Below are positions 6,416 through 15,187 of a stretch of 43,436 nt of DNA, piece by piece. A program made the position numbers and the translations under genes. The notes below the pieces were generated by a model. That model searched no databases and was not told where the DNA came from. It saw nothing but the letters and a program-made list of their open reading frames with translations. Source of the DNA: Candidatus Saccharimonadota bacterium (GTDB lineage: Bacteria; Patescibacteriota; Saccharimonadia; Saccharimonadales; Saccharimonadaceae); assembly GCA_017964025.1 (NCBI GenBank), contig JAGCST010000007.1, positions 1 to 43,436 of the forward strand, written 5' to 3'. Position 1 is the stretch's first letter, and each line of letters opens with the position of its first letter.

Positions 6416-6446
6416 TAAAAAATAAACCCTTGCGGGTTTATTTTTA
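6411..6446 (-). terminator. rplU terminator
   Basis: Minus-strand AAACCC/GGGTTT hairpin with a GCAA loop and a following T-run. The stem begins right at the rplU stop codon. Flanking A and T runs could let it work in both directions. Confidence 0.75.
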
Positions 6447-6752
6447 ACCGATTTTGGTAATTTCGATTTCGGTATATTTCTGGCGATGTCCAGTTTCTTT
6501 ATGGACGCGTTTCTTAGCTTTGTAGCGAATAACGCGAATCTTATCACCCTTAACTTCGAGCGTCTTAACTTTAGCTGAAACCTTTACGCCCTTTACTGTA
6601 GGTGTGCCGACGGTAGTTTTGTCGCCATCAATTAATAGTAAAGCGTCAGTTTCGAGCTCTTTGGTGCCTGCCGGGAGGAGGTCCACCCGTAGGGTCTCTT
6701 TTTCGGCGACGAGATATTGTTTTCCGCCAACCAAAATGACTGCTTTCTTCAT
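6444..6752 (-). CDS. rplU: 50S ribosomal protein L21
   Basis: Large-subunit ribosomal protein of normal length (102 residues). It starts with KKAVILVGGKQYLV and ends with the family signature RKHKETGHRQ-like segment KKRVHKETGHRQKYTEIEI. An AGGA ribosome-binding site precedes the ATG. In most bacteria rplU is followed by rpmA (L27); here a terminator follows at once and parA comes next, so rpmA must lie elsewhere or be absent. Confidence 0.95.
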   Translation of the reverse strand: MKKAVILVGGKQYLVAEKETLRVDLLPAGTKELETDALLLIDGDKTTVGTPTVKGVKVSAKVKTLEVKGDKIRVIRYKAKKRVHKETGHRQKYTEIEITKIG

Positions 6753-6791: not shown

Positions 6792-8081
6792 TTAGATTTT
6801 GTGAAGTAGATAGAGGTAAAGCGCTGATAGAATGGCGCCATCATGCATAGTACCAACTTCGGGACCTATAAAATTCCCTGCCCAAGAAAGTGGTATAGAT
6901 TCAATTTCTTGAATAAGATTAGTATATTTATTTGCATGTTCAGGATGTTCTGAGACGTCTCGATAGGCTTTTGAAAGTCTTTTAAAAATACTACCAGCAT
7001 CATAAAGATATTGTCTAGGATATTTATTAAAAATATTATTAAATGGTTTATCCGCCTCTGGTTGACCTTTTAAAATTTGGTCATAACTTTTCTGAATAGA
7101 CATAGGAAGATATTTTTTTCGTGTTTTAATATAATCTGTAATCGTTTCAGCAAAAGATTTTTCTTTGCTATTCTCTATATCTTCAAACCAATCCATCACT
7201 AAATCTGGAATGTTGATATGTGTGACTGGTGTAAAATTTGGCCAACCAGCAGCAATATTGGTTTCTAAAAGGTAATAATTGTCTGTATCTTTCTCTTTTA
7301 TAATATCAATACCAGCATATTCCAATTTGGAGATGGCAGCAGCACGGGTAGCAATTTCTGCTAATAATTCCAATGTCTGTGGATTATTTTCGGGATATTT
7401 TTTGCGACCAGCACTCCAAGCGATAAAATCGCCTGGATTTTGCTCATCGCCAATTTTACGCATAGTACCAACCGCAACTCCACCTATCACAAATACACGA
7501 TAATCACATTCTGGTTGAATATATTGTTCAATTAATAATTCACTAAAATTATCTATTTTATCTAGATCTTCTTGAGCCTTTATTAATGTAATGCCTTTCC
7601 CAGCCGTTCCACGACGATCTTTAAGAACAATAGGATAATGCACGCGATTAGCTTCAATATAGGATATCACATTATCTTTATGCTTAGCTTCAAAGGTAGA
7701 AAGAGCATATTTCTTAAGAAATGGATCCATTAAAAACAAGCCTTGCTGAAAGTGTTTATCTGAGGTAGACATACGTCGTCCTGCAACATCTATATTAATA
7801 CAAACTTTATGGTTTTGTTTGAGCCAATACATGAGACGTTCAGCTTCGTGATAATTGTTTTTGGAAAGTTCGCGAAAAATTACATGGTCCAATGGAATAT
7901 CATCAAGGTCAAAACGTGCTAATTTATCAGAATTAATACCTAAGAGTTGGCAAAAATTCCAACCACGTCTTTTGGCAGCAGAGGCAAAACCGTCAACCAT
8001 GTGACGGTTTTCCTCCCTGCCTTCCATAACAGTTAAAGTAGGACGATTTTTATTTGAGTTCTTCGGAACCTGTGTTGCCAT
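6792..8081 (-). CDS. ATP-grasp ligase, RimK/glutathione synthetase-like
   Basis: Predicted ATP-dependent carboxylate-amine (or thiol) ligase. From the ATG at 8081 it has 429 residues. An N-terminal Rossmann-like domain starts at RPTLTVMEG. The ATP-grasp core shows VLKDRRGTAGKG, LLIEQYIQPECDYRVFVIGG, and the Mg-binding block AGIDII...YYLLETNIAAG. A helical C-terminal extension of about 130 residues follows and I do not recognise it. The frame is open to 8117, but the ATG at 8081 is enough to include the first strand; the ATG at 8027 would cut into it. It overlaps the upstream surface-protein gene by 32 bp, so coupled translation is likely. Substrate unknown; context suggests an envelope-related ligation (inference). 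Confidence 0.8.
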   Translation of the reverse strand: MATQVPKNSNKNRPTLTVMEGREENRHMVDGFASAAKRRGWNFCQLLGINSDKLARFDLDDIPLDHVIFRELSKNNYHEAERLMYWLKQNHKVCINIDVAGRRMSTSDKHFQQGLFLMDPFLKKYALSTFEAKHKDNVISYIEANRVHYPIVLKDRRGTAGKGITLIKAQEDLDKIDNFSELLIEQYIQPECDYRVFVIGGVAVGTMRKIGDEQNPGDFIAWSAGRKKYPENNPQTLELLAEIATRAAAISKLEYAGIDIIKEKDTDNYYLLETNIAAGWPNFTPVTHINIPDLVMDWFEDIENSKEKSFAETITDYIKTRKKYLPMSIQKSYDQILKGQPEADKPFNNIFNKYPRQYLYDAGSIFKRLSKAYRDVSEHPEHANKYTNLIQEIESIPLSWAGNFIGPEVGTMHDGAILSALYLYLLHKI

Positions 8082-9429
8082 TGTCTTTTGGAGTTTTACC
8101 TGAGACACCACCTTCAACAGTCTTTAATGTTTTTTGAGTTCTGTAGAGATAATAACCACCACCGCCAATACCGATGATAATCACAGCTGCCATAATGATT
8201 TCAACTGGACCAGTATTTGGAAGTTCTTGACAACCTTCCATCTCTGGGTTAATCTTACAGTTTTTCTCTTGGCATTCTGGGAGACTTGGATTAGTTTCAC
8301 AGTTGTCGAGCGGTTCGTCTGGTTCTTCACAATCGGTGCGTTTAACTGTAATGGTAGTAGAAGCTTCTTTGGTTTCACCGCTACTTTGGTCACTATCGTA
8401 AGTTAAAGTAGCTTTATTGGTAAGCTCTGTACCATTACAATCGAAGTCAGCGCCAGCTTTAACTTTGTAAGTAATATATACTGTGTTGCCTGTGCCAATG
8501 GTCCCAAGGTTATATCCGTCCCCAAAGATATTATCAGATAAAGTTTCAGGGTTGGTAGAATCATTAGCTGTAAGTTGTACGCTGCCTGGGACTAAGGAAA
8601 GTCCAGCTGGTAAAACATCTTTGATAGTAGCATTAGTAAGAGCTATATCACCGGTGTTTCTAATGACGAGTCTGTAAGTGGCTTCTTCGCCTGGTGCGAG
8701 ATTAACACTTTCAGTAAACTTGTCGCCATCTTTAGAAACAGATTTTTCGATTGAGCCACCGAGCTCTTCAGCTTGAAGAACATAAGTGACTACACCATGA
8801 TATTCTTCACAACCTGGAATGACGCCATTTAAGGAGTTAAGCCCTACAAGAGCACCTTCTTCAGTAAATAGAGACGACGGCATGACAGACCCACTAGCTT
8901 TCCAATCGCTATAAATCTTAGCAGATCCAGAAACGTAATGCATTAAAACTTTTTCAGTTTTAGTAGTCATATAGGCTTCATCCCAAACTGAACCTGGGTT
9001 GCTATTGTCAGCTGTAATGGTTGCCGATATGGTTCCCTTCTTATCAGGAGTTAAGACAGTAGAAAAGGCAGTGGCCATACGCGTTCTAATAGCCACACCT
9101 GAATGATCGTGAGCCGAATCGTTAAAGGTTGATGAGGCATTATTGTGGAAGTAGACATACACTAAATATTGTCTGCCAGGTACTACTTCCAACTCATTTT
9201 TCAAGTCGGTAACTTCAGCATTAATTTCGCCTACCCTTACAAAATCACGTTCATCGCCAATAGTTGGATTATTGGTGATTGAGTTAAATGTTGGATAAGT
9301 AGCTGGCTTTTCCATTGTGAACGTAGTACGCTCTGGTCCCCAAGCAGAAGCGCTAGCGAAAGTAGCCAAGCTCACACCTGCAGTAGCAAGTACACTCAGT
9401 ACTTTTAATTTAGTTTTATAATTTTTCAT
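8050..9429 (-). CDS. Secreted surface protein with DUF11-type domain and LPNTG C-terminus
   Basis: The protein has 459 residues. A signal peptide (1-29) ends at SASA/WG. An N-terminal region (about 30-225) of unknown fold is followed by a DUF11-like beta-sandwich (about 235-365; VNLAPGEEATYRLVIRNTGD, KDVLPAGL, LTNKATLTY). A Cys-rich linker with six cysteines comes next, then LPNTG (403-407) and one membrane segment (about 409-427). Sortases use LPxTG for anchoring, but the tail after the membrane segment is about 30 residues, much longer than in a usual sorting signal, so simple membrane anchoring is also possible. It has an AAGGAG ribosome-binding site and sits 20 bp behind the repeat-protein gene in the same operon. 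Confidence 0.85.
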   Translation of the reverse strand: MKNYKTKLKVLSVLATAGVSLATFASASAWGPERTTFTMEKPATYPTFNSITNNPTIGDERDFVRVGEINAEVTDLKNELEVVPGRQYLVYVYFHNNASSTFNDSAHDHSGVAIRTRMATAFSTVLTPDKKGTISATITADNSNPGSVWDEAYMTTKTEKVLMHYVSGSAKIYSDWKASGSVMPSSLFTEEGALVGLNSLNGVIPGCEEYHGVVTYVLQAEELGGSIEKSVSKDGDKFTESVNLAPGEEATYRLVIRNTGDIALTNATIKDVLPAGLSLVPGSVQLTANDSTNPETLSDNIFGDGYNLGTIGTGNTVYITYKVKAGADFDCNGTELTNKATLTYDSDQSSGETKEASTTITVKRTDCEEPDEPLDNCETNPSLPECQEKNCKINPEMEGCQELPNTGPVEIIMAAVIIIGIGGGGYYLYRTQKTLKTVEGGVSGKTPKDNGNTGSEELK

Positions 9430-9449
9430 GGTCTCCTTTCTCCTACCAT

Positions 9450-11147
9450 TTAATCAATCCCTAAATCGCTAAGGGCATCATTAACTTCTTGTTTACTAGT
9501 TGGGGCATCTTTAACCTTTGTCTCAGATTCATCGGCCTTTTTCTGGGCTTCTTTGTTTTCTTTGACTGGGGCATATTCACTAGAATTTTTGCCTCCTTTA
9601 TCTTCGCTATAATTGTTCTCCTGTTTTTTAGGTTCAACTTTTTCAGCTGGTTTAGAAGTCTCATTTTGGACAGTCTTTGGTTTGGTCCCTTCATAATCAC
9701 TTCCGGAAGGCTTTTCAGTTTTTTCCTTTTCACTAACACCTGGATTAGGATTATGTTTAATTTCTTTGGTACCAATATCTTTCTCGATTTCTTTATCAAT
9801 TTTTTCATCAATACGTTGGAGATTTTCAGAATCTTTTGGCTTGATATCAGTTCCTTCGGAACCAGTACCTTCAGATCCGGTACCTTCAGATCCAGTGCCT
9901 TCAGAACCAGTACCTTCAGATCCGGTGTCCTCGGAACCAGTACCTTCAGATCCGGTACCTTCATTACCGGTACTTTCAGAACCAGTACCTGGTTCTGGAT
10001 CTGGGATTTCATCCAAGCCATCGTACACTGGTGAATCTTTATCACTAATAACCTGCATGCAACCCTTAAATCCAACGATATTGCCATTCTCATCATACAC
10101 TGGCGTCATTTTAACCATCATAGAGCCAATTTCATTACCATTTTCATCTAACCAATAAAACTCGGTGACTTCAAGATTGCTCTCGTTGGTAGTGCACTTA
10201 ACTAATTCCATATTCTCGTGCACAACATCACCACCCTTGTGGCGCATGTAAGCGTTATTTTTCTCGCCATTTACAGTAACTCGACGAGTAAAGGCTCTGT
10301 CCATAGTCCCATTATATTGTTTTTGGATAGCTTCGTATTCTTCATCACTAAGACTTTCGAGTTTTTTCTCGGTTTCGAGAATAGAAAGCCCCTTGAAACC
10401 TTCTGGTTGTTCTTCTTCTGGTAAATTGGCTAGATAATCAGCGAATGACTCTACTTGATTATCAGCTGCATATTTCATCATTTCACATTCATCGTTGTCG
10501 CAAACTTCGGCAACTTCTTCAGCGCTGGTGAAAGCATTTTGGCTAGTTTTTTTCTCAGATAACCACATGCCCTTTTCACCATAACCATCTTTAATGCCGA
10601 TTGTTTCCTTTTCAAAATTTTCATCGCCACCAATAACTTGTTCAGCTACTCCTTGATTATTGTCTGGAGATGGTGCTGTAGAATGACCAATAAAATAACC
10701 TCCGGTGGCACCAGCTAAAATGGCAACACCAAGACCTATAGCTATAGCTTTCTTACTAAACCACCCTTTGGCTTGGGGATTTTCCTTAGTTCTGTTTAAG
10801 GTAGCTCTGGCTGTTTCAGCACTAACGGTTTCGGCAGCTGGCGCAGCAACTTCGCGAGCGACTGGAGCTGGGGTTTCAGGAGTGGCTGGAGCAGCAGCTT
10901 CTTGTTCAAGCTTGGCCTTCATTTCTAAAAGTTCGCGATAAGCTCGTCGTTGTTCTTCAAGACTCATTTTACTAACGTCTTTGCTAATGAATTCTTCACG
11001 ACTTATTCCCTGGAAAATGGAATCTCCTGCTCCACTTTCTATAAAAGCTTCATTAGCCTTTTGACCACGAGCTTGATTTATCTTTGCGCTCTCACCACCA
11101 GTTTCAGCAGATGATGAGAAAGAATTAAAACTTTCTGGGTTAGGCAT
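9450..11147 (-). CDS. Membrane protein with GTGSE repeats, function unknown
   Basis: The protein has 565 residues. A cytoplasmic N-terminal region carries a coiled-coil-like Glu/Lys stretch (about 60-84) and a Pro/Ala-rich linker; one membrane segment follows (about 133-153). The extracytoplasmic domain (about 170-385) has paired cysteines (CDNDEC, KCTT...KGCM). Next comes a run of about nine TGSEG-type pentapeptides (about 393-437) and a long Lys/Glu-rich tail ending in SKQEVNDALSDLGID. No family is recognised. It overlaps the preceding small gene by 8 bp (ATGCCTAA). Its last residues resemble the negatively charged ends of the neighbouring small protein family only loosely. Confidence 0.7.
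   Translation of the reverse strand: MPNPESFNSFSSSAETGGESAKINQARGQKANEAFIESGAGDSIFQGISREEFISKDVSKMSLEEQRRAYRELLEMKAKLEQEAAAPATPETPAPVAREVAAPAAETVSAETARATLNRTKENPQAKGWFSKKAIAIGLGVAILAGATGGYFIGHSTAPSPDNNQGVAEQVIGGDENFEKETIGIKDGYGEKGMWLSEKKTSQNAFTSAEEVAEVCDNDECEMMKYAADNQVESFADYLANLPEEEQPEGFKGLSILETEKKLESLSDEEYEAIQKQYNGTMDRAFTRRVTVNGEKNNAYMRHKGGDVVHENMELVKCTTNESNLEVTEFYWLDENGNEIGSMMVKMTPVYDENGNIVGFKGCMQVISDKDSPVYDGLDEIPDPEPGTGSESTGNEGTGSEGTGSEDTGSEGTGSEGTGSEGTGSEGTGSEGTDIKPKDSENLQRIDEKIDKEIEKDIGTKEIKHNPNPGVSEKEKTEKPSGSDYEGTKPKTVQNETSKPAEKVEPKKQENNYSEDKGGKNSSEYAPVKENKEAQKKADESETKVKDAPTSKQEVNDALSDLGID
9849..9992. repeat. 15-bp tandem repeats coding for TGSEG pentapeptides
   Basis: On the plus strand, units such as ACCAGTACCTTCAGA and CCGGTACCTTCAGAT recur with a 15-bp period across about 140 bp, with synonymous changes and a few Asp/Ser/Asn substitutions. 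Such arrays often vary in length between strains. Confidence 0.8.
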
Positions 11148-11469
11148 TTTGACCTCCTAAGAATTCTGCACCAAATGCGTTCATAGCATCAGTAATTTTT
11201 TGTTCGACATCAAGACCGATACGATTGAAGAAATTTTCAAAATCGCTTTCTTCTACGTTGCCACGATCAAGCAGTTGATTAAATTCAGTATTTTGTTCTG
11301 CAGTAAGACTGCCAAATACGGCTAGACCAATCTTGTCGTCAAGTGACTTAATTGATTCTTCCCTGAGATTATTAAGCTCTTCCGGTGTGTTAACTGGCAA
11401 AGCTTTCCTTTTGATGAGTTCATCGACAAACTTACCAAGAGTTTCTCGATCTATGAGATAATTGTCCAT
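11140..11469 (-). CDS. Small acidic protein, DUF5663-like
   Basis: The protein has 109 residues and is predicted helical and acidic. The pattern of an N-terminal LIDRETLGKFVDELIKRK helix, LDDKIGLAVFGSLT and the segment FNQLLDRGNVEESDFENFF resembles the DUF5663 proteins I associate with Patescibacteria. That assignment is from memory and unverified. It has no signal peptide or membrane segment. It is the first gene of the envelope operon, expressed from a -35/-10 promoter at 11515-11543 with a leader of about 40 nt but no clear ribosome-binding site next to the ATG. It overlaps the repeat protein by 8 bp, so the two are probably made in a fixed ratio. Confidence 0.6.
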   Translation of the reverse strand: MDNYLIDRETLGKFVDELIKRKALPVNTPEELNNLREESIKSLDDKIGLAVFGSLTAEQNTEFNQLLDRGNVEESDFENFFNRIGLDVEQKITDAMNAFGAEFLGGQNA

Positions 11470-11514
11470 AGCTTTTTTGTTAAATTATTTTATTGGTAGA
11501 CCTTTCTGGTTTTA

Positions 11515-11543
11515 AGTTTAACATAAGCTTGATTATTGGTCAA
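11515..11543 (-). promoter_or_regulatory. Promoter of the four-gene envelope operon
   Basis: Minus-strand TTGACC (11538-11543), 17-bp spacer, TAAACT (11515-11520). Confidence 0.7.
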
Positions 11544-11589
11544 CTCATTTATGTTTATTTTTTTGAAAATTTTTGTTTTAGTTCCCATT

Positions 11590-11618
11590 AAAAAACCGAA
11601 CATGTTGTTCGGTTTTTT
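11590..11618 (-). terminator. Terminator of the small-protein unit
   Basis: A 12-bp perfect stem AAAAAACCGAAC/GTTCGGTTTTTT with a 5-nt loop. It is symmetric, so it can work in both directions. It ends the minus-strand transcript from 12107-12135 just before the next operon promoter. Confidence 0.85.
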
Positions 11619-11641
11619 AGGTAATTTATGGTTTTTTATGG

Positions 11642-11815: not shown

Positions 11816-12025
11816 TTAGGCAGAAAGACTTCTTTGAATCTTTTCCCAATCTACCATATTTCTAATTGCAAGTTTGATTGGTGATTTTTTGATTCTAGTG
11901 ATGGTAGTCTTTTTGACTTCATCTGGAGAGATATAAGTTCTCTCGTCTTTATATGTTTCGTAATCGATGTCATCCTTCCATTCAGAGTCGATTACTTCTT
12001 TTGGTAGATTGATAGTTTCTTCCAT
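11816..12025 (-). CDS. Small charged protein, unknown function
   Basis: A 69-residue protein with an acidic first half (IDSEWKDDIDYETYKDERTYISPDEV) and a basic second half (TRIKKSPIKLAIRNMVDW). It has no signal or membrane segment and no family is recognised. An AAGGAAAAC ribosome-binding site precedes the ATG. It is driven by the best sigma-70-type promoter in the window (TTGACA-17-TACACT at 12107-12135) with a leader of about 75 nt that holds a 7-bp hairpin GTTAGAA/TTCTAAC (12072-12098). The -35 lies inside an inverted repeat, suggesting repression. Confidence 0.65.
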   Translation of the reverse strand: MEETINLPKEVIDSEWKDDIDYETYKDERTYISPDEVKKTTITRIKKSPIKLAIRNMVDWEKIQRSLSA

Positions 12026-12229: not shown

Positions 12230-15187
12230 TTAGACTTTTTCCAATGAAATAGTAATGTTTTGGCCGCCTAATTTGACTATTTCGTCGTGAGAGTAGTTGC
12301 CGTTTTTGATAATTGATTTAGTGCCAGTTTCGGTCTTGATAAGTTCTTCATGGCCTTTTGGCAAATCACATGAAAGAGATAGTTTAATTTGGTCGTCTAC
12401 GCTTAATTTTGCGTGTTTACGAGCGGCTTGGACAGCACGGATGAGTTCACGTGCTCTTCCCTCTTCTAGGAGTTCTGGAGTCAGTGTTTTATCTAAAGTA
12501 AGTTCTTTACCTACTGCTACTGACTTGACATTAACTTCGTCAGTAATAATTTGTTCGTAGAAATCATCAAGCTTATCACCATTATAAGTGAGCTTGGAGA
12601 GAGGCTGACGAATTTTAATCTGATCCTCGGTTTCAGATTTTTGCATTCTAAGAGCTAAGGCATCAGTAATGATTTGGCGAGTACGAGCCATCTTTTCTAG
12701 GATTTCAGTATCGATGACGCCTGGTTCAGGCCAGTCTAATAAATGGACCGATTTAGTATCGCCGGTTACCTTTTGATATAGCTCTTCAGCTAAGAAAGGC
12801 GTAAAGGGCGCGAGTAATTTAGACAAGTATATGAGTATATAGTAAAGAGTGGTAAAGGCTTGTTTTTTGTCTGTTTTGTCATCATTTTTACTGAAACGAC
12901 GACGAGAACGACGAACAAACCAGTTACTCATATCATCAATAAATGGTAAAACGCCTTCTAGAGCTTTTGGCAAGTTATATTCCTCCATACCTACTGTAAT
13001 TTCATCGCGAAGTTGGTATAGGCGAGATATAATCCATATATCAAACGGATTGGAACTTAAAATATTGCTATTCTCAAGTTCTTCAGAAGACAAACCTTCT
13101 ACCTCAGCATATGTGGTGAAAAAGTCGTAGACATTCCAAATCATGGCAAGTTTACGATTAACGTCAGAGACGTCTTTGTCTAAGAGTGCAAAATCTTCGC
13201 CGGAGAGAACTGGAGAGCTGAGCAAGAGAAAGCGGAGAGCGTCGGCGGAGTATTGATCCATGAGTTCGTTCGGATCGGTATAATTTCCGAGCGATTTACT
13301 CATTTTGCGACCATCATTCCCTGCCAAGGTACCAGTGGTAATAACATTTTTGTAAGCGTTTTTGGCACCGGTTTTGGCTTTATCGCCAAAAGCACCAATG
13401 CTAGCGAGAGTGGTATTAACAGCGTGAACGTAGTAGAACCAAGCACGAACTTGGCCAACATATTCTACGATAAAGTCTGCAGGGTAATTAGCCTCAAACT
13501 TTTCCTTATTTTCAAATGGATAATGCAACTCAGCAAACGGCATAGAACCGGACTCAAACCAGCAGTCGAGGACTTTTTCAATACGAACGAAATGCTCGCC
13601 ATCAATATCAAAGGTGATGTCGTCTACCCATGGGCGGTGGTAATCTTCGAGCTCTTTACCAGAGAGTTCCTTAAGTTCGGCATAACTGCCGATTACTTTA
13701 ACTGAACCTTTATCACCTTTCCAAACAGGCATAGCGGTGGCCCAGAAACGATCGCGGGATAGATTCCAATCAGGAGCAGCTTCGATGTTTTTGGCGAAGC
13801 GACCATGTTTTAGATAACCTGGGAACCAGTTGATGTTTTCGTTCTCATCGAGCATGAGCTTCTTTTGGCCTTCGATATCAAAGAACCAAGATGGGAAAGC
13901 GCGATACATGATGCGCTCTTTGGAACGAGGATTGAAAGGATACTCATGTTGGATATATTCAATCTTATAAACAACACCTTTCTCTTCTAGACATTTAGCA
14001 ATAAATTTGTTAGCAGCCCAGATTTGGATACCGTGTTCGTCGGTGTCGCGAACACCAAAATTATGTAATTCTTCAGCCATATCTGATAAATAATAACCAT
14101 TTTCATCAAGGCAATCAACAAAATCAAGTTCATATTTATCCATTAAGGTATAGTCATCTTCGCCGTAGGCAGGAGCACAGTGAACAATACCGGTGCCATC
14201 CTCGGCAGAAACAAAATCGCCAGCAACAACGGTGTAGGTGTCTTTACGTGTTACTGTACCCTTGTCACCACGCAAGCCAAGATCAAAAAGGCCATCGGCA
14301 ACTTTAATAATTGGTTCATAATGTTTGCCAACCAATATTTTTCCCTTAAAAGCTTCTTCGGGTTTTTGGTCTTCAAAGAGAACTTTGCCACGTTCTAGGG
14401 CAACGATATATTTCTCGTCATCTATTTTATAAATTCCGTAATCGAGTTTGGGATTAATTGCAAGACACATATTACCTGGTAAAGTCCATGGGGTAGTAGT
14501 CCAAGCTAATAGATAGGTATTTTTTCGTTCACTATCTTTTAATTTGAATTTTACATAAGCACTAGGGTCAGTGACAGTTTGGTAAGCGTCGTTGTCCATG
14601 GTAACTTCAGCTTTAGAAACTGGAGTAGCAAACTTAGTATCATACATTAAAACTTTACGGCCTTCGTAAATCTTACCGGCGTCGTAGAGCTGTTTAAAAG
14701 CCCACCAGACAGATTCCATAAAGTCTTTATTCATAGTGCGATAGCAATTATCGAAATCAACCCAGCGACCAACACGGTCGATGGTAGAGCGCCAAGTTTC
14801 GGAATTTGCCACCATTGATTCGCGGGCTTTAATAATATAATCCTCTAGACTCCATTTGGTGCCAATATCGCGGCGATCGGTAATGCCAAGCTGTTTTTCA
14901 ACGAAGTTTTCAGCGGGAAGACCGTGACAATCCCAACCCCAACGACGTTCAACTCGATAGCCATTCATAGTCCAGAAACGTGGCACGGCATCTTTAACGA
15001 TAGAGCTGAGTAAAGTACCGTGATGTGGATTGCCAGTGATAAACGGAGGACCGTCATAAAAGACATATGATCTGTTAATCGGCCTATTCTCTACCGATTT
15101 TTCAAAGGTTTGATTCTTTTTCCACCACTTTGTGATAGCTTTTTCATATTCTACGGCTTTTCGCCTCTCTCCAGCTCTATATTTCAT
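12230..15187 (-). CDS. ileS: Isoleucyl-tRNA synthetase, eukaryote-like (IleS2) type
   Basis: Charges tRNA-Ile. The protein has 985 residues. The class I HIGH element reads HHGT (55-58, in GNPHHGTLL), so the second histidine is threonine here. The editing domain has WTTTPWTLPGN, and KMSKS is intact (GRKMSKSLGNY). The segment MYDTKFATPVSKAEV, without cysteines, and the long C-terminal region resemble the eukaryotic/IleS2 form (known for mupirocin tolerance in some bacteria) more than E. coli IleRS; this is from memory of the family. The ATG lies 7 bases after an extended -10 (15195-15203), so the mRNA should be leaderless. Confidence 0.95.
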   Translation of the reverse strand: MKYRAGERRKAVEYEKAITKWWKKNQTFEKSVENRPINRSYVFYDGPPFITGNPHHGTLLSSIVKDAVPRFWTMNGYRVERRWGWDCHGLPAENFVEKQLGITDRRDIGTKWSLEDYIIKARESMVANSETWRSTIDRVGRWVDFDNCYRTMNKDFMESVWWAFKQLYDAGKIYEGRKVLMYDTKFATPVSKAEVTMDNDAYQTVTDPSAYVKFKLKDSERKNTYLLAWTTTPWTLPGNMCLAINPKLDYGIYKIDDEKYIVALERGKVLFEDQKPEEAFKGKILVGKHYEPIIKVADGLFDLGLRGDKGTVTRKDTYTVVAGDFVSAEDGTGIVHCAPAYGEDDYTLMDKYELDFVDCLDENGYYLSDMAEELHNFGVRDTDEHGIQIWAANKFIAKCLEEKGVVYKIEYIQHEYPFNPRSKERIMYRAFPSWFFDIEGQKKLMLDENENINWFPGYLKHGRFAKNIEAAPDWNLSRDRFWATAMPVWKGDKGSVKVIGSYAELKELSGKELEDYHRPWVDDITFDIDGEHFVRIEKVLDCWFESGSMPFAELHYPFENKEKFEANYPADFIVEYVGQVRAWFYYVHAVNTTLASIGAFGDKAKTGAKNAYKNVITTGTLAGNDGRKMSKSLGNYTDPNELMDQYSADALRFLLLSSPVLSGEDFALLDKDVSDVNRKLAMIWNVYDFFTTYAEVEGLSSEELENSNILSSNPFDIWIISRLYQLRDEITVGMEEYNLPKALEGVLPFIDDMSNWFVRRSRRRFSKNDDKTDKKQAFTTLYYILIYLSKLLAPFTPFLAEELYQKVTGDTKSVHLLDWPEPGVIDTEILEKMARTRQIITDALALRMQKSETEDQIKIRQPLSKLTYNGDKLDDFYEQIITDEVNVKSVAVGKELTLDKTLTPELLEEGRARELIRAVQAARKHAKLSVDDQIKLSLSCDLPKGHEELIKTETGTKSIIKNGNYSHDEIVKLGGQNITISLEKV

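Follow-up and report, generated by a model that had tools for sequence, protein, structure and literature searches.

The ATP-grasp ligase gene A is the optional last gene of D-R-S, a near-universal surface-protein module of Saccharibacteria, and its presence co-varies, imperfectly, with the type of repeat in the stalk of the membrane protein R. The co-varying partner of A is this repeat stalk and not S, the LPNTG protein encoded between R and A. We give an even chance to the reading that A is a dedicated protein-modifying ligase that acts on the Thr/Ser-Glu repeat stalk of R before export, a proposal built on sequence comparison and structure models. The window analyzed here is the whole 43,436-nucleotide stretch of contig JAGCST010000007.1 from a Candidatus Saccharimonadota bacterium, the source genome comprising 705 kb in 51 contigs.

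An optional ligase gene in a conserved surface module

ORF calling in the window places D, R, S and A on the minus strand, between ileS and rplU:

12230–15187, minus strand: ileS, conserved left flank of the slot
11140–11469, minus strand: D, 109-aa acidic DUF5663-like protein, first in the core module
9450–11147, minus strand: R, 565-aa single-pass membrane protein with an ectodomain, a Thr-Gly-x-Glu stalk and a C-terminal tail
8050–9429, minus strand: S, 459-aa protein with a signal peptide, a conserved N-terminal domain, DUF11 and LPNTG
8209–8223, minus strand: LPNTG sortase-like motif of S, followed by a hydrophobic helix and a basic/polar tail of about 35 aa
6792–8081, minus strand: A, 429-aa RimK-like ATP-grasp ligase (residues ~11–305) with a helical C-terminal extension
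6444–6752, minus strand: rplU (L21), conserved right flank, directly after S where the locus is without A

D and R overlap by 8 bp, R and S are separated by 20 bp, S and A overlap by 32 bp, and A, which starts at an ATG at 8081, is followed by rplU after 39 bp. These ORFs and coordinates confirm the four closely packed genes described in an earlier note on this DNA, and the features the note had read in two of them are also genuine: the GTGSE repeat in R is recovered as an array by TRF, and S combines LPNTG (8223–8209) with a DUF11 match above the Pfam cut-off. The small DUF5663-like protein of the note stands as an ORF, with a weak domain assignment, as D scores 19.3 bits against DUF5663 (PF18908), below the Pfam cut-off of 23.7. 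A single promoter for all four genes is plausible: a sigma-70-like site (9/12 match) lies at 11543–11515 and a strong hairpin at 11588–11620, in a region where a promoter scan finds 15 promoter-like sites against 16.4 in shuffles, that is, no excess. A 69-aa protein of unknown function, kept in many relatives, is encoded at 11816–12025 between ileS and the module.

Gene order compared across about 90 loci of this genus and its family, in Saccharibacteria metagenome-assembled genomes (MAGs) of which many are from ruminant gut, revealed a shared slot with the order ileS–(69-aa gene)–D–R–S–(A)–rplU–parA–parB. D-R-S is nearly constant among these relatives, D is kept upstream of R with or without A, and 115 of the 118 genomes sampled from the genus have S. 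Within the genus, 18 of 174 genomes carry A; across the order 20 of 393 do at E ≤ 1e-25, where a few weak matches are other RimK-type enzymes. Because most of the genomes are MAGs, absence of A is safest where S adjoins rplU. In more than one genus A was seen nowhere but in this slot, and it directly follows S in 23 of 25 loci; in genomes G116 and G153, which carry a second D and R, A instead directly follows the second R (8 and 13 bp). The earlier note had proposed a four-gene system and suggested examining co-occurrence across Saccharibacteria. There the genes are not scattered, with D-R-S together in nearly all loci and A in the same slot when present, but the four do not form a fixed unit, since D-R-S occurs mostly without the ligase.

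Two further arrangements of these genes were observed. The duplicated D-R block of G116 and G153 (loci L042, 4571–13704, and L059) encodes a second R of about 1,320 aa with a longer T-G-x-E array. The genome that contains the window has a second R-S pair (L127, G000:C29, 4980–8236) with a KPDKPDKP linker and no ATP-grasp ligase; its S is without a canonical LPxTG, a TrbL/VirB6-like protein comes next, and the pair is possibly a paralogous surface module tied to a secretion apparatus.

Ligase presence follows the repeat type of the R stalk

R proteins encoded with A typically carry Thr/Ser-Glu arrays in their linkers (GTGSE, GTGNE, GTGTE, ETGNE, SEKE, KETDEKTT, TNPEG), whereas linkers without A are mostly PTPEP-like, Ala-Glu-rich or non-repetitive. 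We defined a Pro-poor Thr/Ser-Glu motif as a 30-residue stretch containing no more than 16 distinct dipeptides and 5 Pro, together with 4 or more Glu and 5 or more Ser/Thr, a criterion fixed only after most data had been viewed. By this criterion 19 of the 23 R proteins encoded with A contain the motif, against 3 of the 58 encoded without A (Fisher p value 7e-12, which disregards relatedness). Exceptions occur on both sides: the arrays of L052 and L137, which have A, are Pro-containing or imperfect, and repeats of the Glu-Thr/Ser type occur at L107, L092 and L114, where A is absent. The association excludes L090, L097 and L117, where it could not be told which gene follows S; L097 has Gly/Thr/Glu repeats, and its contig ends about 470 bp past S.

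A scan of all 174 genomes of the genus with a DNA pattern for (TGxEx)3 gave a concordant picture. The strict pattern occurs in 9 genomes, comprising 8 of the 18 with A and 1 of the 156 without, and among the matches listed in A-bearing genomes it falls at the A locus. The sole A-less genome, G213, has a single match, which does not code for TGxE in the long ORF at that place, and the ten A-bearing genomes that escape the strict pattern have other Thr/Ser-Glu spacings.

Architecture of the R and S proteins

The N-terminal region of R is followed by a single hydrophobic helix and then the ectodomain, from which a low-complexity linker leads to the tail; searches for a usable Pfam family returned none for R or for the duplicated R2 and D2. 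Three features were mapped within R:

10689–10745, minus strand: predicted transmembrane helix (residues 135–153), with the hydropathy maximum at residue 135
9993–10607, minus strand: ectodomain (residues 181–385), with a confident AlphaFold2 model and no solved-structure match
9848–9990, minus strand: T-G-x-E-G tandem array, a 15-bp unit repeated 9.5 times with 76% DNA identity (TRF)

The Lys-rich N-terminal flank of the helix suggests an N-in/C-out orientation. AlphaFold2 models the ectodomain with very high confidence as helices followed by long curved strands; against solved structures the best Foldseek match has E 0.21 and VIA returns nothing at Z ≥ 2, and the modeled domain is possibly a new fold. 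Away from their ends, the longest arrays keep T and E invariant and leave x free (N, E, D, Q or H in G153; N, E or D in G116), and Thr and Glu codons differ synonymously within arrays. Given also the DNA identity of only 76% in the window array, this pattern seems to reflect selection at the Thr and Glu sites and not a recent origin by copying.

S scores 36.3 bits against DUF11 (Pfam cut-off 24.6) and goes with features of a sortase substrate: an LPxTG motif, a hydrophobic helix, basic residues and a sortase in the genome, where two sortase genes (PF04203) score above cut-off. The [LMI][PV]xTGP motif is conserved in S of most relatives, and the NCBIfam LPXTG_anchor model gives 13.2 bits, below its cut-off of 15.9. 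The module resembles sortase-anchored LPXTG stalk proteins in its signal peptide, LPxTG-helix-tail arrangement, two genomic sortases and repeat-rich stalk proteins, and differs from them in having a ligase tied to the repeat type of a neighbor's stalk.

A is a RimK-like ATP-grasp enzyme

A scores 62.5 bits against RimK (PF08443), above the Pfam cut-off of 21, and the whole-protein subfamily model TIGR00768 gives 72.6 bits, below its cut-off of 143.4. Residues K154, R195, D259, E273 and N275 are invariant in the 23 A members and align with RimK catalytic residues. An AlphaFold2 model of A from 23 relatives (pLDDT 89, pTM 0.88) has as its nearest solved folds RimK (Z 25.5), ArgX (25.2), LysX (25.0) and PsnB (22.4), followed by Ddl, glutathione synthetase and microviridin ligases (Z 20–21; MdnC 20.0). 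RimK, ArgX, LysX and PsnB all act on peptide or protein carboxylates.

The closest relationship is to RimK, the ribosomal protein S6:L-glutamate ligase (5zct, 5zk6, 7qys), which gives the best sequence profile, shares the ATP-grasp fold of A residues 14–305 and the catalytic Lys, Arg, Asp, Glu and Asn, and ligates onto a protein carboxylate. A differs in its identity of about 20%, its score below the family cut-off, its helical C-terminal extension, its coupling to a surface-protein operon and the lack of a Pfam match to RimK_N (PF18030) at E ≤ 1. The extension is absent from the 297–301-aa enzymes of L044, L132 and L137 and so is not essential. LysX and ArgX activate the Glu carboxylate of the acidic carrier protein LysW and attach an amino acid. 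A has the same fold (3vpb, 3vpd; Z 25), but no LysW or lysine/arginine pathway genes lie beside it and its candidate substrate is a long exported repeat stalk. PsnB and MdnC share the fold as well (Z 22.4 and 20.0) and act on Thr/Ser and Glu/Asp, sometimes with several cores per polypeptide; graspetide precursors are short leader peptides, whereas the candidate here is a 500–1600-aa membrane protein.

Two conventional identities for A were rejected. A is not the housekeeping RimK of the cell, because this genome encodes RimK at another locus, next to a retropepsin-like protease partner. A glutathione synthetase or other small-molecule pathway enzyme was rejected, as no pathway genes are present and both GshB and Ddl score lower than RimK in fold and sequence comparisons; the earlier note had given a glutathione synthetase with its own pathway genes as an example of a known cytosolic enzyme that would undo its proposal.

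Other RimK-like arrangements were observed alongside. The separate RimK locus (L214, G000:C2, 2489–4655) encodes RimK, a retropepsin-like putative zinc protease and, on the opposite strand, a third small ATP-grasp-like gene. At L055 (G121:C6, 3332–6561) a 773-aa fusion of a RimK-like ligase and a putative ATP-dependent zinc protease lies beside a canonical RimK, and a RimK-like neighbor at this locus matches PF18030 at 3e-35. Tandem RimK-like ATP-grasp genes of 590+289 and 319+297 aa occur at L147 and L148, on Moraniibacteriota and Shapirobacteria contigs.

Proposed function of A and alternatives

From gene order, co-variation, fold and catalytic residues we infer a candidate substrate, chemistry, timing and purpose for A. 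In the cytosol, ahead of R export, A would form an ATP-driven acyl-phosphate on the repeat glutamates, as do RimK, LysX/ArgX and PsnB. The likeliest nucleophile would be the amine of free glutamate or another free amino acid, yielding a (poly)amino-acylated acidic stalk as with RimK and LysX/ArgX, and the main alternative would be the hydroxyl of the Thr three residues before Glu (T-G-x-E), yielding a stapled stalk. By analogy, amino-acid ligation appears somewhat likelier than Thr-Glu ester stapling, because RimK and LysX/ArgX are closest by sequence and fold; the co-invariance of Thr and Glu and the (S/T)xxE spacing favor stapling. The modified stalk may be stiff, charged or protease-resistant and keep the R ectodomain off the membrane, a job that proline-rich stalks would do in relatives without A. 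Two points count against this mechanism: a modified R must still cross the membrane, and A is without a visible export signal. Other genes could also be the true target, the stalk co-varying for another reason. Of the two outcomes raised by the earlier note, modification of the surface proteins or synthesis of a surface-linked peptide, modification of a neighboring surface protein is best supported, with R alone picked out as target rather than both.

The alternative that survives best, although we consider it improbable, is that A acts in the manner of a graspetide ligase, making Thr/Ser-Glu side-chain esters within each repeat (i to i+3) and stapling the stalk of a full-length surface protein. 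T and E, and not x, are invariant in the arrays; (S/T)xxE is enriched with A (median 8 with A versus 3 without, per 50 residues); the plesiocin ligase PsnB is among the best fold matches of A; and a single ATP-grasp ligase can process several cores per polypeptide (PMC5934393). However, RimK and LysX outscore PsnB by fold (25 versus 22) and by sequence, no graspetide (ATP-grasp ribosomal peptide) maturase model matches the window A, and TIGR04187 matches just 4 of the 23 A relatives (best E 2e-6). A short precursor with a leader and a Thr/Ser-Asp/Glu core is absent from the locus, where the repeats sit in a 565-aa membrane protein, and the i+3 spacing is missing from the A-bearing loci L067, L054 and L052.

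It is less probable still that the correlation mostly reflects shared ancestry, with a few clades inheriting both A and Gly-rich linkers. On a species tree of IleRS, ParA, ParB and L21 (78 rows, including two loci added after the first association count) A is indeed clustered, with 8 changes against 20 in shuffles. Yet A changes state at least 8 times on supported branches of this tree, and in 8 independent pairs differing in A the motif is concordant in 6.3 and opposite in 0.3 (median sign-test p 0.03); a looser motif cut in the same pairs gives 6.9 concordant (median p 0.016). The independent pairs are few (8), which limits the association; an earlier tree of 76 rows gave only 5 usable pairs. 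Genome G282 and its sister G180 also speak against ancestry. Ahead of the linker the two R proteins share 56% identity, each S has the other as its closest counterpart, A is present in G282 only, and at the same place the linker is TNPEGTK-type in G282 versus poly-Thr/PEPEP in G180. As the A of G282 groups with the window/G001 clade (100/100 support) while its R and S are closest to those of A-less G180, G282 probably gained A laterally.

We regard it as similarly improbable that A modifies S, at its DUF11, tail or sorting region, or makes a small S-attached peptide, the R repeat being incidental. The position of A right after S in most loci and the 32-bp overlap in the window fit this idea, but nearly all relatives have S without A, S adjoining A may be without DUF11 (L054, L065 and L067), A comes after R2 in G116 and G153, and the feature that co-varies with A belongs to R. 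Equally doubtful is a cytosolic metabolite or RimK-type housekeeping ligase merely parked in the operon, which would fit the match of all 23 A members to RimK-family profiles, a family that includes the cofactor ligases MptN and CofF, but sits poorly with the canonical RimK and retropepsin-like partner elsewhere in the genome, the single slot of A across genera and the co-variation with the R linker.

Discussion

The preferred reading, modification of the R stalk by A, may be extended to a fuller picture that we hold tentatively, at somewhat less than an even chance: a RimK-like ligase would covalently rebuild long T-G-x-E arrays, by stapling or by Glu-chain addition, in place of a proline-rich stalk, and the ligase gene would come and go with the repeat type. 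ATP-grasp ligases with short Thr/Asp-containing precursors have been predicted in graspetide loci of CPR bacteria (branches 1 and 2); as set out in the sections of that source covering these loci, they differ in having small precursors, peptidases or cluster-23 genes, and no D-R-S loci are described there (PMC8939145). A search of the open-access literature, with subscription literature outside its scope, found no paper joining Saccharibacteria ATP-grasp ligases with surface proteins.

Next to nothing is known of the surface chemistry of Saccharibacteria and other candidate-phyla bacteria, which spend their lives attached to host bacteria. If the preferred reading is true, A would be the dedicated enzyme of a post-translational modification with a readable sequence code, the T-G-x-E repeats. 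The range of ATP-grasp protein modification would then reach beyond ribosomal proteins, carrier proteins and short peptides and take in long surface stalks, and a genetic marker for stalk type in epibionts would become available.
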